Shown here in pieces: positions 21,066 to 27,457 of a stretch of DNA of 64,000 nt (within the stretch, counting starts at the first letter, position 1; the number at the start of each line of letters is the position of its first letter). The notes under the pieces were generated by a model. It did no database searches. It was not told where the DNA came from and saw only the letters and a program-made list of their open reading frames with translations. The DNA is taken from contig OY744605.1 of assembly GCA_963556255.1 (NCBI GenBank), positions 11,909,140-11,973,139 on the forward strand, written 5' to 3'. The translations under genes and the position numbers were made by a program. The stretch comes from Allolobophora icterica. Lineage: Eukaryota; Annelida; Clitellata; Crassiclitellata; Lumbricidae.

Positions 21066-24000
21066 CTATTTCCGTTTCTTTAGCTCTTCAAATCTCTTTG
21101 CCAGGTCATCAAAGTTGGCATCGTCATCGACTGGCGGACCTCCTCTCACAGTGGCTGGCACACTGGGTAGCTCAGGTAAGGTCTCGTATGTAGATGGCTG
21201 AACTCCTCCCTCAGATTTCGTCTGCCTGGGATCTCCAGGAGAATTGAAGCTGAATCCAGGGGGTGGTGGATTACCAGCCTATAACAACAAAGCAACTGGT
21301 CAGATTAATAATATGCAAAGAGCACTACATCGTATGCAGGGCTGAAGGATTTTTTAACTGAATCACCGACACATGTACCATATATTCAGGAGACCCATTA
21401 TACTACACTTTGTTATACGACAAATTCTGATACGAGTCAAGAACATGGATCCCAAATTAGTTTAACTATAGGAACTAAACTCACTATAACATGACTTCAT
21501 TTTAAGTTGGCAGGGCTTTGAATATTGCGATACTGTATCGCAATAACAAGATATCGATGATACTTTTTCATTATCACTATCACAATAGTTTAATTTTTTT
21601 GCTATCTCATGTGTATCACCAATACTGTCTAGCCTATAAATCACTGATACTCGATACCAATACTTTTTCCACAATAGGCCTATAATCACATTCTCCCTAT
21701 ATAATTATATATGGTCTCTCGTCTAGTTTCTCTTGAACAGTGCTACAGAAATTTCTTATTGCAATTATAATGAGCTGCAGGACTTGCCTGTGAAGGATAC
21801 ATGAAAGGCGCCTGTGGCAGAGACTGGTGCGTTCTACCTCCTCCTCCTCCTCCTCCTCCTCCTCTGTTATTTGAGCTCATATCATCGAAAAGAAGGTTAG
21901 GCTGCATCGAGTCCATTGCTAATGGATCGGACACGTACGCAATGTTATACGACTTTGCGATCTCTTCAAGGTATTTCTCAATCAGGACTCGTGGAGGTGC
22001 CTGCACGCTCAGCTTATGAATCAGCTTCTCGTTGACGACATTCATTGTGTTGGCTCGACAGCTCTGAGTGAACTCCTTGCCATACTTTGCCGTCAGCTGC
22101 TCTGAGATTTTCGCCAATTCCTGTACCTCGGACTGCAGCCTTGGCGTCGCCCAGATGATGCTTGCAATTGGCTCTTCCAGTCCATCATCCATTTCCCTGT
22201 GATTTCAAACAGTCAAGGAATTAATTAACTATGATTTTTAATTAGCACTTACACTGTTACATTCAAATCAATGCAGTTTCGTTACTGTTCATACTTAACA
22301 TAAATTATGCTCATCGTCTCCGCTCTGTTATCTATCTTGAATCCATCACATGATGGGAGTGTTTGGATCAAACAGGTAGTCTGATAAATACATAGTTCAA
22401 TAACATTTCAAATGGTTATTTGTTATCAGAAATATTACAGTGTAAATGATAATTTCTCTTGTGGCATTATTTCTAAAGCATTGTAAAATAAATGGTACAC
22501 TAAATCTATAAAGGCTCATCTGTATTTTTACATTTGGATTTATAACGCGATATGTTATAATGCGTTAATAATTGAATACTTTAAAAAGAAATTGCCAGAT
22601 TGTATTATTTTTAGTGCTTCAAAGTAAGTGTGCTGCCATATATATTATAGTGAGTTCTCCAAGTGGTCTTACTTCGTGCTTTGGATAAGTCCCATGCGTG
22701 CCAGCAGCAGATCACAGTACATCTCTATAAGTTCCATGGCTTCTACCATGTAATCTTCGCGGACAATGTCGATGGCTGGAAGCACAAAGGTGCTAAGCGC
22801 ACTTTTCTTAATTCTAAGAAAACTGAAGTTGAAGTTTTGTTATGTGTTGCTAAAATTCATTATTCAAAATAATTCGATTTGCAATGACTTTTCCAAAAGA
22901 AGAGCTTATTGCAGTGTTACAAGTATTTTTATTTTTGCACAAATAATTCTGTTTGTAAAAAAAAAATGACTTTGTAAAATTACTGTAAGGAAATATATGC
23001 ACTTAGGACTTTTGTGCGCTGATGCTGGGACACCTGAAATACTAATTCATGTCAACTGTTTTGACAATTGTTTTAGAAGACCCTTAATAAATACTGTTCT
23101 AACTAGCCTTTAAGCATTTGTTAATTTATTAAGCACCACATGATTATATTATTTAATTTTAAAATGTCTTTTAAGCAAAAAAACTCCTAATAATATCAGG
23201 AAAATAACCAAAAATAATTTAATTCAAGTATGAGCGACTCTTACGCCGAGTTTTCCTTCAAATTAATGTGATAATCATAGCTGTCATACTTATCATTATA
23301 ATTAACATCCAATAAAGATTTAAGAAAAAAATATTATAATGAAAATCAAGAAGCACCAAAATGCATCTTCCTCCATAATTTATCCACATTTCACACGTTG
23401 AAGAAGTAAAACAATAAAATGCAACAGTAATTATAAAATAATGCTCTGCATTCAAGCCATTAGTTTCAGATAAGAAAAGAATAACATTAAGTTTGAATTC
23501 AGTCTTCTTCCTCGTCAGCACAGGGCTCCGGAAGACAGTCTCGAGCTCTAGCATTTGAAGGCAAGTCATTGTAGAAAACCGCATGCTCTGCCGGAATTAC
23601 TCTGCTCTTCAGTAGCGCAAGGAGGTCAGCTTTTTTGGCCGTCGAGATTGGGATTCGAGAGAGATAGGCTGGTGTAAGGTCCCCTATCAGTGTGTTTGGC
23701 CTGCCGCGTTTGCTGGATATGTTGAGGCGAAGGAAATTCTCATCACTAATCTGGTATTTGTACTCAATGACAAATGGGTGAAGTTTACTGAAGCGCAGCC
23801 ACTTAACACGTAGCCAATTCACCGTATCCCCCTCCATATTCTTGCTGCGATTTAGTAGAAGAGTAGAAGCCAGCATCTTCAAGTCACTGAAGTCTGTGTG
23901 CATCATTCGCTGAACGATAAATGGAGGAGCTTTCTTTCGTGCACCGGCTATCGCCACTTCCCAATCACGAGTTGTATAAATTTTGAGATGCTTTGTAGCT

Positions 24001-27000
24001 CGCTCAATCAGGGAGTGCATTAGATCTACATCTAAATACGAGTGGCCACTCTCCATATACTTTAGATCAACAGTTTGTAGAGAAGGCAATGTTCTAATGG
24101 CGTACAACATGACTGCACAGATAAACTGGTTGCGATTTTGTCCACCGCAAGTATCTGAGAATGATGTGACGTGCGTGACGGTTGCTGGAAGTTTTCGCAA
24201 GTAATCCAGAAGGGCGGACCCTATATCATTTGCTCCCCTACCACCTTCTGTCTCGTCCCATATGTAATTGAATCCTTGTTGGGATGCCGATTCCAGTATC
24301 GTAAAGTTGTACACAGCAAGCTTCCTTCTATAATATATTTGTGAATCACCTGCATGTGGAGTAGAGAGAACTGCTTCAAGATCAAATGTTATGGCTCGAT
24401 ACGATTGGTCACTGCAAGCTTTTACTTTATCGCGACTCTTCTCCTCCATAGACTCTTTTTCTCGCCTTTTATGTGCTTCCCATGCATCATGCAAGTTCGT
24501 CTTCTCTGTATCCACAGCATTTCTGTAGCTATTACAAGTGGAGCACTGATCTTTCTTAGGAATAAAGAAGCCAAGATTAAATTGGGTATTGAAGACTCTT
24601 CGATAGATTTCTTGCTTAACAGGTGCTACTCCAAGCCTTTGACAGTAATCCTCACTGTACAAACGGTAAAGCTGTTGAATATTAAGATCAGGTGCCAAAT
24701 ACCGTTTACGTGAGTCTTTGCGAGTGTAATGCGATTCAACCTGCGGAAAGCTGTTTATGTGATCGACGATCTTCTGGATATTCTCATCTGAAGTTTTATT
24801 TGCAGGAACCTTTCCTTTCCGACCATCTTTTCCAACAAATAAACCAGTATCTGATTTACCTTTTAAAGCCCTGTTAACAATCTTGATTGAAATAGCAAGA
24901 GTACTGCAAAAGAAGTTTCTACAGACACGCATTCGATCATCATCGGACATCAAATAATACTCTCGACTTTTCTTGCGCTTTGTGCTTACAGCCTCTCCAG
25001 TTGCAGCATCTATGCTACGCCTGCGGACAGCAACTTCAGTGACTGCGCTGCAGAGGAACTGAGACTTGCACTGAATGTCTTGCAACGAGTAATACTCGTT
25101 GCATAATTGCACTTGCTTATCTTCCGAAATCATGACCCCACACTTAAAACGACATCCTTCTTCGCAACCCCCACATGGTTTTTTTCCCGCCACTAGTTTC
25201 CCTTTCCTCGAAACATACTCCTTTCCATTAGCTCGAGATAGCTGCCTAACATTTCGTTTCCAACCTTGTGTATTTCGTTTACGCTTTCGTGAACGCTCCT
25301 CCATATCTGATGGTGGTAGGCAAGGTGTAGATGCATCGTCGCTGAGAGGAAGACTTCCTGAGGGACCAGGCTCTTCGTTAGAGAGAGAAGTTGAACGAGT
25401 AGACACTGTAACTTCTGTTGGATGTGGAGGATTAACTACATCAACTGTTGTTGGAAGCACTGAATCAGGTGACATCTGTTGAGAAGAAATAACCCCGACT
25501 GGAACTTGCAAAGGTTGCAAGATTGATGGCCTACATGACATGTAAAATAAAAATAAATGCCAATTAAACACTCATTTTTAATAATTTAATAATCTTCCTT
25601 TATTGAAGTTCACATTCACAGAATGCATTGCGATTACAATGAAACATTCATAATCATAGTACACTGTAGTAACTGATGACAAGTTTAACAGAAGTTTAAT
25701 TTAACTTTTGTATTTTCATCATAAGAGTAGTTTAAGTAAATTAATTCATCAATTATAATGGCAGAAATACAAGAAAATGACTACTCCATAGAGACAATGA
25801 CTATTAGACCTACATCTTAAAATAATAATTGAAACCACATTTGAAATGATAGTACAAAGAACTACCTTAGGCGAGTAATGATGATAACTTTACGGGTACG
25901 AGTTCTTTCCATCGGAGTGGCCATACTTGCAACATGAAGGTTGAAAGGCTCGGACGTCAGCAGGTGTGAATGGTCGAGCACTTCTACTGCAGAAACCTCT
26001 CTGCAAAAAGGCTCCAAGACTAGAGGAAGTGTAGGATCAAGCCCTTCAACTGTCATAGCAGGTGTACGATTAAGCGGAGAAGAAACCTCGAGGTCCAGAG
26101 GAAGCATAGTTGCAGGCAAATCAGTTGCCAGCGGGTGTGAATGGTCGAGCACTTCTACTGCAGAAACCTCTCTGCAAAAAGGCTCCAAGACTAGAGGAAG
26201 TGTAGGATCAAGCCCTTCAACTGTCATAGCAGGTGTACGATTAAGCGGAGAAGAAACCTCGAGGTCCAGAGGAAGCATAGTTGCAGGCAAATCAGTTGCC
26301 AGCGGGTGTGAATGGTCGAGCACTTCTACTGCAGAAACCTCTCTGCAAAAAGGCTCCAAGACTAGAGGAAGTGTAGGATCAAGCCCTTCAACTGTCATAG
26401 CAGGTGTACGATTAAGCGGAGAAGAAATCTCGAGGTCCAGAGGAAGCATAGTTGCAGGCAAATCAGTTGCCAGATGTTCAGTAGATGTTCCTAAGACAGA
26501 CAAAATGCATACCCAAGTTAAACAATGTAAAGAAACACGGAGGGATGCATCGCTGGTTTTAATATTCACTATGGCAAGCAATACCGGTCTATGCGTCTGC
26601 AGGTGTGTTCTGGTGGTCACGATCCCACCTGTAGTTGCTTAATAATACCGATGAGACGTCCATGACATTGCCTTTCGATGCAGCCCAAACCTTACTGCAT
26701 AATACCGCATAATTTTTACAATTTTACCACATAAGCCGATTTCGAGCTTTAAATCACTTAATTTCCCAAACATCAACATTTATTTTCCATAATTTTACAG
26801 CATTTTCTAAGGTTCCTATTCATAAGCTTACCATCATCACTGGATTCCTCGATTGAATCATTAAGGTCCATGATCATCTGAAGCGCTTTTGCAGAACTGA
26901 AACGATGCACTCGTTTATGCATTTCAATAATAAAGATTTCGAGATATTGTTTCTGTTATTTTTAATGTAACTTTTATTATTTTTGTAACGGGGACGACGA

Positions 27001-27457
27001 TAAACAGTAATGGCGAATGGCGTGGAAGTCAACAACAAAGACAAGGCGTTAAAAAAAGAGGGTGCACATAGGTATTAAGTGCGCTTGAGCTATTTGCGCT
27101 CTATGGATTTCAGCCAATGAGACTTAGCCCAATTGTGTTTTTGGTGCCAAGTGATCCAAATTAACATCGTAAACGTTAGTACCTTTGTGCTCCGATGTAT
27201 ATTTCTTCCAGGCATATTATGCACTACTTTTTTGAAAAACCCAAAAAAGTGCGCTTAGCACCTTTGTGCTTCCAGCCATCGATGTGTTCTACACGGATTC
27301 TCGCCCTCTCTTCCTTGCCAGACTGGAGGTAATCGGCGATCTCTTTGCGTGCCTTAACCGCCATCTCAGTTTTCTTCTTTTCGAGCAGTTTCAGTCGGTT
27401 TATAGCCAGACGAAGGTTCGTCGAAAGCTTCTGATATTGAGGTCCGCTGCTGAACAT
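21066..27457 (-). CDS. IST1: IST1 homologue, ESCRT-III-associated protein (4 exons, 306 aa as spliced here)
   Basis: IST1 binds ESCRT-III (CHMP1) and VPS4/LIP5 and acts in endosomal sorting, tubule scission and cytokinetic abscission. Exons (minus strand): 27457-27262, 22775-22673, 22196-21788, 21278-21066, 921 nt in all. Exon 1 gives the start MFSSGPQYQKL and the conserved LRLAINRLKLLEKKK and KARKEIADYL helices. Exon 2 gives VREDYMVEAMELIEMYCDLL. Exon 3 gives the APPRVLIEKYLEEIA helix and a poly-Gly tract. Exon 4 ends with a MIT-interacting motif, FDDLAKRFEELKK. Intron 1 is a DNA transposon (22770-27281); the splice sites I use lie in its TIRs and add ten residues after RVEHI (DGWKHKAID plus one). 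Without the element the frame reads RVEHIVREDY, as in relatives. Intron 3 needs a GC donor. Identity is very firm; the exon 1/2 junction is inferred. Confidence 0.92.
21279..21787 (-). other. IST1 intron 3, a probable GC-AG intron
   Basis: The only frame-preserving join between exon 3 (ends tat cct tca cag) and exon 4 (starts gct ggt aat cca) uses the donor CAG|GCAAGT and acceptor tgttatag. The nearby GT (aa|gtcctg) would put a stop right after the junction. CAG|GCAAGT is the usual strong context of natural GC-AG introns. Confidence 0.75.
22236..22440 (-). pseudogene. Partial copy of the 28.6-kb secreted-protein ORF inside IST1 intron 2
   Basis: Aligns with 28530-28730, including the 3' flank, the stop position and the C-terminal codons: LIQTLP then FKI, R.ET and KYEQ-stop are kept. 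Upstream, frame is lost (an in-frame stop and small indels). It is a truncated, decayed duplicate, or a second member of a repeat family containing that ORF. Confidence 0.7.
23499..26922 (-). CDS. DDE/RNase H-like transposase of the IST1-intron element (3 exons, 915 aa)
   Basis: Exons 26922-26832, 26490-25866, 25530-23499; 2748 nt with consistent phases (donors gatg|gtaagc and ctaag|gtagtt; acceptors gtcttag and catgtag). N-terminus MHKRVHRFSSAKALQMIMDL is acidic after residue 20. Exon 2 is mostly three 57-residue repeats. Exon 3 holds a basic stretch, a Cys cluster (CGGCEEGCRFKC, about residues 358-369), helices with SREYYLMSDDDRMRVC, the block ESHYTRKDSRKRYLAPDLNI, then a second Cys pair (KKDQCSTC, about 564-571). 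The likely catalytic fold follows: ITFDLEAVL (Asp 622), FSDTCGGQNRN (Asp 698) and MESGHSYLDVDLMHS (acidic residues 732-741). I recognise a widespread metazoan family of uncharacterised proteins with this layout (DUF7869-like). The assignment of D-D-E residues is inference. No stop or frameshift is seen. Confidence 0.82.
25965..26477 (-). repeat. Three tandem 171-bp repeats inside the transposase exon 2
   Basis: Units start at 25965, 26136 and 26307 and are nearly identical in DNA (one obvious change is aaacctcg/aaatctcg). Each encodes 57 residues including ATDLPATMLPLDLEVSSPL and AMTVEGLDPTLPLVLEPF. The length is a multiple of three, so the frame survives. High identity points to recent duplication or an assembly-relevant array. 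Confidence 0.95.

Follow-up and report, generated by a model that had tools for sequence, protein, structure and literature searches.

An insertion in the coding sequence of an earthworm IST1 gene

The DNA analysed here (the window) is a 64,000-nucleotide stretch of contig OY744605.1 from the earthworm Allolobophora icterica, and it carries an IST1 gene that is split by a large insertion. The mitochondrial COX1 of this genome shares 97 percent identity with an Amynthas sequence and 96 percent with sequences of Eisenia, Polypheretima and Pontoscolex, which places the host among the earthworms. Both flanks of the insertion belong to this one minus-strand gene, as judged by Pfam Ist1 matches (6.1e-15 and 3.5e-28) and by comparison with solved human IST1 chains. 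The coding sequence runs from the ATG to the insertion at 27286–27457 (MFSSG...RVEH; Pfam, human IST1 chains and frame), resumes past it at 22673–22769 (IVREDYMVEAM..., in frame) up to a GTAAGA donor, and continues with a third exon at 21788–22196 (EMDDGLEEP...PSQ; Pfam and frame) and a last exon at 21066–21278 (GNPPPPGF...KKRK and a stop, in an open frame). The first-pass annotation had claimed that the downstream exons remain open, and we found them so up to the terminal ...FDDLAKRFEELKKRK. The last intron (21278–21788) begins with a GC donor, CAG^GCAAGT, and is of the GC-AG type.

Between the first two coding blocks lies a complete DNA transposon of 4512 bp (22770–27281), recognized by its terminal inverted repeats (TIRs), its target site duplication (TSD) and its 55 genome copies, with its transposase gene on the minus strand, as IST1 is. 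The two 37-bp TIRs form a perfect pair, at 22770–22806 on the plus strand (the 3' end in the sense of the gene) and at 27245–27281 on the minus strand (the 5' end), and they are flanked by a perfect ATGT duplication at 22766–22769 and 27282–27285. This structure had been described correctly in the first-pass annotation, and so had the effect of removing the element: the flanks joined with one duplication give ...RARIRVEHIVREDYMVEAM... / ...RARIRVEHIVREDYMVEAMEL... in a single IST1 frame, and EHIVRED reappears if one ACAT (gene strand) is retained.

We then compared this site with the 120 IST1 homologues listed of the 1212 found, 114 by pattern, five by printed context and one (P0021) by eye; none of these 120 has the insertion. 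The best matches among those listed are 95 percent (P0001) and 92 percent (P0002) identical. Because no listed homologue has an insertion here and the flanks join in one frame, the element is an insertion into IST1 coding sequence, and the earlier claim that it entered an exon and not an older intron holds.

The genome contains two further IST1 genes, at C6:32.15 Mb and C4:75.09 Mb, which makes three altogether; we matched these paralogues to the window gene exon by exon over residues 1–184. According to the first-pass annotation, an ordinary intron at the insertion codon would speak against its reading of the element. The paralogues narrowly fail to provide this case: in both, a phase-0 intron of the ordinary kind separates R55 from V56, but it is placed 11 nt upstream of where the element went in. 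That intron is absent from the window gene, whose coding sequence runs through R55–V56. Also absent are the other introns that both paralogues (L121 and L122) contain, the full set being near residues 31 and 55/56 and, apparently, near 120 and 147. Since the paralogues carry introns that the window copy lacks, this pattern suggests intron loss in the window copy. A fragment of the third IST1 exon (L123, G000 C4:11889750-11889974; residues 168–225), some 41 kb away from the window gene, contains a stop and is an IST1 pseudogene piece.

A putative DUF7869 transposase

The minus strand of the element accommodates a three-exon transposase model whose exons we picked by splice signals and frame: exon 1 at 26832–26922, exon 2 at 25866–26490 and exon 3 at 23499–25530. 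In the window copy this model is open over 915 aa, and its third exon matches DUF7869 (PF25273, E 2.7e-6, 27.6 bits against a cut-off of 26). Exon 2 includes three in-frame tandem repeats of 171 bp (25958–26473) that are 99 percent alike.

A homology search found 339 related proteins, of which 120 were listed. The top listed entry, P0121, groups 16 sequences that are almost the same and come from SRA assemblies; below it, the listed homologues reach at most 57 percent identity and include named nemertean, sea cucumber, Hydra, beetle and mollusc proteins. Across 42 aligned sequences D459 and a GQNRN motif are invariant, while D383 and E509 are nearly so. The conservation of these three acidic residues suggests that the protein has a D-D-E core. 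Searches with the transposase profile gave no match to solved structures up to E = 1, NCBIfam gave a single match far under its cut-off (E 0.063), and we found no paper naming DUF7869 in the literature.

Fifty-five nearly identical copies

The first-pass annotation had proposed a search for further TIR copies, and we ran it on the whole genome (1.118 Gb in 328 contigs). A pattern search that allowed two mismatches gave 55 TIR matches in each orientation, forward and reverse, with no mismatch in any of the 100 rows listed, and a left-end pattern that allowed three mismatches found 55 matches, each again with none. Neither search returned diverged or unpaired ends, although copies without ends escape searches of this kind. 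The element is 4512 bp long in 53 of the 55 copies, with one copy of 4511 and one of 4514 bp; for the length of 4512 bp, 48 of the 50 listed pairs were measured by coordinates and the other five right ends fall at the positions that this length predicts.

We also compared the ends of other copies with those of the window copy. In 15 copies the two 1537-bp ends together differ from it at six of 46,110 bases, and the 1631-bp left ends of eight further copies show no mismatch in 13,048 bases, so that the comparison covers the ends of 24 of the 55 copies, the window copy included. Because the 55 copies have intact ends and are almost identical in the stretches compared, we interpret them as a very recent burst of an apparently autonomous DNA transposon. 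The TIRs, the TSD and the open 915-aa transposase model likewise bear out the earlier description of a cut-and-paste element that is apparently autonomous, its activity being judged from sequence.

Target sites and insertions in host exons

A perfect 4-bp TSD surrounds the element at 52 of its 55 sites. The duplicated sequence is ATAT in 37 cases, ACAT in six, ATGT and AAAT in two each, and ATAA, ACGT, CCGT, ATAG and ATTT in one each. Just outside the TSD there is some palindromic bias, with T or C before it and G or A, then T, after it. At three copies (L025/L026, L045/L046 and L105/L106) the flanking bases do not match, which looks like an exchange or a loss of flanks.

Next, we asked how many copies lie in host coding exons, using a Pfam scan of the reading frames that cross the reconstructed empty sites. 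A low-complexity filter left 86 frames of 45 aa or more that span the junction; of these, 64 (10 + 54) were scanned, covering 44 of the 55 sites; the IST1 empty-site frame served as the positive control. At least two of the 55 sites are in host coding exons, those in IST1 and in a Mab-21-like gene, a lower bound in that 22 of the 86 frames were dropped, eight sites had no such frame and three had dropped frames only. With an assumed coding fraction of 3–4%, chance alone would place 1.7–2.2 of the 55 sites in exons. The demonstrable exon insertions are thus at about chance level and the targets are ATAT-like; exon targeting by the element is not supported.

The Mab-21-like insertion (L031/L032, G000 C3:30332522-30337033) interrupts a 716-aa frame with a Mab-21_C match (E 8.5e-16) and has the TSD ACAT; here the element is opposite in direction to the gene. 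Another copy (L011/L012, G000 C1:12093808-12098319) precedes a CARD-domain frame by about 29 nt. We rejected it as an exon insertion, since a pyrimidine-rich stretch ending in CAG parts the site from the frame; the copy may instead separate the branch point and the acceptor of an intron of the CARD gene. The sites L015, L059 and L065 are inside long frames that by eye resemble other mobile elements, and none of these three slices had a Pfam match.

Candidate splice sites in the terminal inverted repeats

The first-pass annotation had held that both TIRs offer suitable splice sites. Sites do exist. In the sense of the gene, the 5' TIR contains a single GT, at 27261–27260, which forms the candidate donor AAAG^GTGCTA, and the 3' TIR contains the candidate acceptor CTTCCAG^CC, with its AG at 22777–22776 and the exon resuming at 22775. 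Because the TIRs are inverted copies of each other, the element would present such a pair in both orientations. Splicing at these sites would leave 30 nt behind (4 of the TSD + 20 + 6), which are stop-free in all three frames; the predicted IST1 product would read EHI-DGWKHKAID-IVRED, and in the Mab-21-like gene splicing would likewise add DGWKHKAID and keep the frame. The TIR has three AGs, of which two leave a multiple of three and so keep the frame; for this reason we did not count frame preservation as evidence of adaptation.

Scored with a weight matrix that reflects animal splice sites in general and may not fit this species, the TIR acceptor reaches 3.2 bits and ranks 9th of 284 (11th of 303 in the other orientation), while the TIR donor has -0.8 bits and ranks 27th of 238 GTs (29th of 235). 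For comparison, IST1's own donor scores 2.0 bits and its first acceptor 1.3, and the two transposase donors score 4.8 and 1.2. The earlier assessment is therefore right about the acceptor, which is good, and too generous to the donor, which is weak and is exceeded by splice sites inside the element. Past the transposase stop there are also AATAAA signals in the sense orientation, at 23130 and 22933. A transcript that was read through unspliced would add 18 residues to the first IST1 block and then reach a stop.

Consequences for the IST1 allele

We consider it probable that a single young transposon copy of an apparently autonomous type inserted by chance at an ATGT in the IST1 exon and produced an allele that is mostly disrupting. 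As its structure shows, the element with its DUF7869 transposase entered this site by cut and paste, duplicating four bases. Transcripts of the allele would mostly end or be mis-spliced inside the element and be truncated or chimeric, an expectation that is based on the read-through stop, the internal splice sites and the sense poly(A) signals. The allele is presumably young, perhaps heterozygous or polymorphic, and most likely has lost IST1 function. Two features count against disruption: the TIR acceptor outscores the first IST1 acceptor and the second donor of the transposase is itself not strong, and the 30-nt residue is open in every frame. Some mRNA might still be freed of the element, although this is not a role for which the element evolved, and by analogy IST1 may be rescued at the RNA level, through splicing at the TIRs as for Tc1 or through SOS splicing.

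The first-pass annotation proposed that the element is itself an intron, in which the spliceosome joins the TIR donor to the TIR acceptor, removes about 4.49 kb and leaves ten residues (DGWKHKAID and a rebuilt Ile) in the protein. With perfect inverted TIRs, neither the orientation of the element nor the frame would matter, and in Aureococcus introners with both splice sites and added codons are described (PMC9860276). The GT and AG within the TIRs, the good rank of the acceptor and the stop-free residue, which behaves in the same way in the Mab-21-like exon, all fit such a proposal. However, the donor is weak even beside IST1's own, stronger internal sites and the sense poly(A) signals would compete with it, the 55 copies show no bias toward exons, and none of the 120 listed IST1 homologues has the extra residues. 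Frame neutrality is weak evidence when two of three TIR AGs retain the frame. We regard this form of splicing as unlikely, and the intron or introner reading, unproven as it is, is not the one we favour. Equally doubtful to us is the broader version in which we would be seeing a full-length introner at the start of its invasion, with perfect TIRs that act as an orientation-independent, frame-neutral splice pair and with exon insertions that the spliceosome or SOS splicing takes out of the mRNA, the transposase being kept.

SOS splicing depends on TIR pairing, CAAP1 and AKAP17A. At the IST1 locus, TIRs paired in the pre-mRNA would cause the element to be excised independently of the spliceosome and the ends to be ligated by RTCB, partially healing the IST1 mRNA. 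The perfect 37-nt TIRs are able to pair in a transcript; the joined ends fold at -85 kcal/mol (z -14) in a construct without the middle, a fold that tells little about the actual ends, 4.4 kb apart; and the genome has RTCB and CAAP1 domains (the latter at 34 bits, cut-off 25). The process is described in metazoa, where it cuts transposons out of animal mRNAs with RTCB as the ligase, in the review PMC13247085. Against it stand the 4.4 kb between the TIRs and the transcription unit and poly(A) signals that occupy them, and we judge it unlikely. Very improbable is an origin in which the element took the place of a regular IST1 intron close to this codon, or slid away from one: the R55/V56 intron of both paralogues is nearby, but its position differs by 11 nt, and both the ends of the element and its TSD are perfect, inside coding sequence that reads through R55–V56. 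We rejected this origin on these grounds.

Returning to chance insertion with disruption, this reading also bears on the earlier claim that the survival of IST1 depends on splicing out the element. That claim is weakened by the young age of the burst, by possible heterozygosity and by the two paralogues. Because of the paralogues and possible heterozygosity, the allele can persist without splicing.

Relation to known elements

The targets of the element are like those of Sola2-type transposons, which likewise combine TIRs with 4-bp AT-rich TSDs (ATAT, AAAT, ATTT) and a transposase of about 900 aa (PMC3627910). The same paper gives 888 aa for the transposase of the Dictyostelium elements, compared with the 915-aa model here, and TIRs of 12–21 bp, in contrast to the perfect 37 bp of our element. 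We therefore call the element Sola2-like in its targets; it may belong to that family.

The introner survey PMC9860276 describes introners that come from nonautonomous DNA transposons, with family median lengths of 30–654 nt; in that survey some families carry both splice sites and add codons, introners are gene-enriched in 161 of 175 genomes, and the animals with introners belong to two taxonomic groups only. Our element shares with them DNA-transposon features, insertion in an exon, and splice sites with an in-frame addition like those of Aureococcus. It differs in measuring 4.5 kb and encoding its own transposase, in contrast to those medians, and its splicing is a prediction. The word 'annelid' does not occur in PMC9860276, and no annelid is named in the titles or abstract openings listed for introner papers. 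A 4.5-kb transposase-bearing introner in an annelid would be new, if true.

Other analogies come from animal genes with DNA transposons. Rushforth and Anderson reportedly observed in 1996 that Tc1 insertions in C. elegans exons can be removed by RNA splicing; Tc1 is likewise a TIR transposon in an animal exon, but it belongs to another superfamily, and splicing was demonstrated for it whereas here it is predicted. A case of Tc1 splicing in dpy-19 appears in PMC12405876. The substrates of SOS splicing are, similarly, animal mRNAs that carry a DNA transposon (PMC13247085); for our element, excision is a possibility.

Of these results, the recent burst of an apparently autonomous transposon in this earthworm, two of whose insertions lie in exons, is the more solid. 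The genome was apparently caught during or just after invasion by a complete transposon of the DUF7869 family. The element is thus a candidate for being active, and it offers a natural test of how an animal responds when a TIR transposon enters an exon. Should the IST1 mRNA of carriers prove normal, introner birth or SOS splicing would be seen here in nature; otherwise the locus would be ordinary disruption by a young transposon. Elsewhere in this genome, a nuclear contig holds two COX1-bearing stretches in opposite orientation (G000 C8:61145165-61147875), apparently an inverted pair of mitochondrial DNA insertions.
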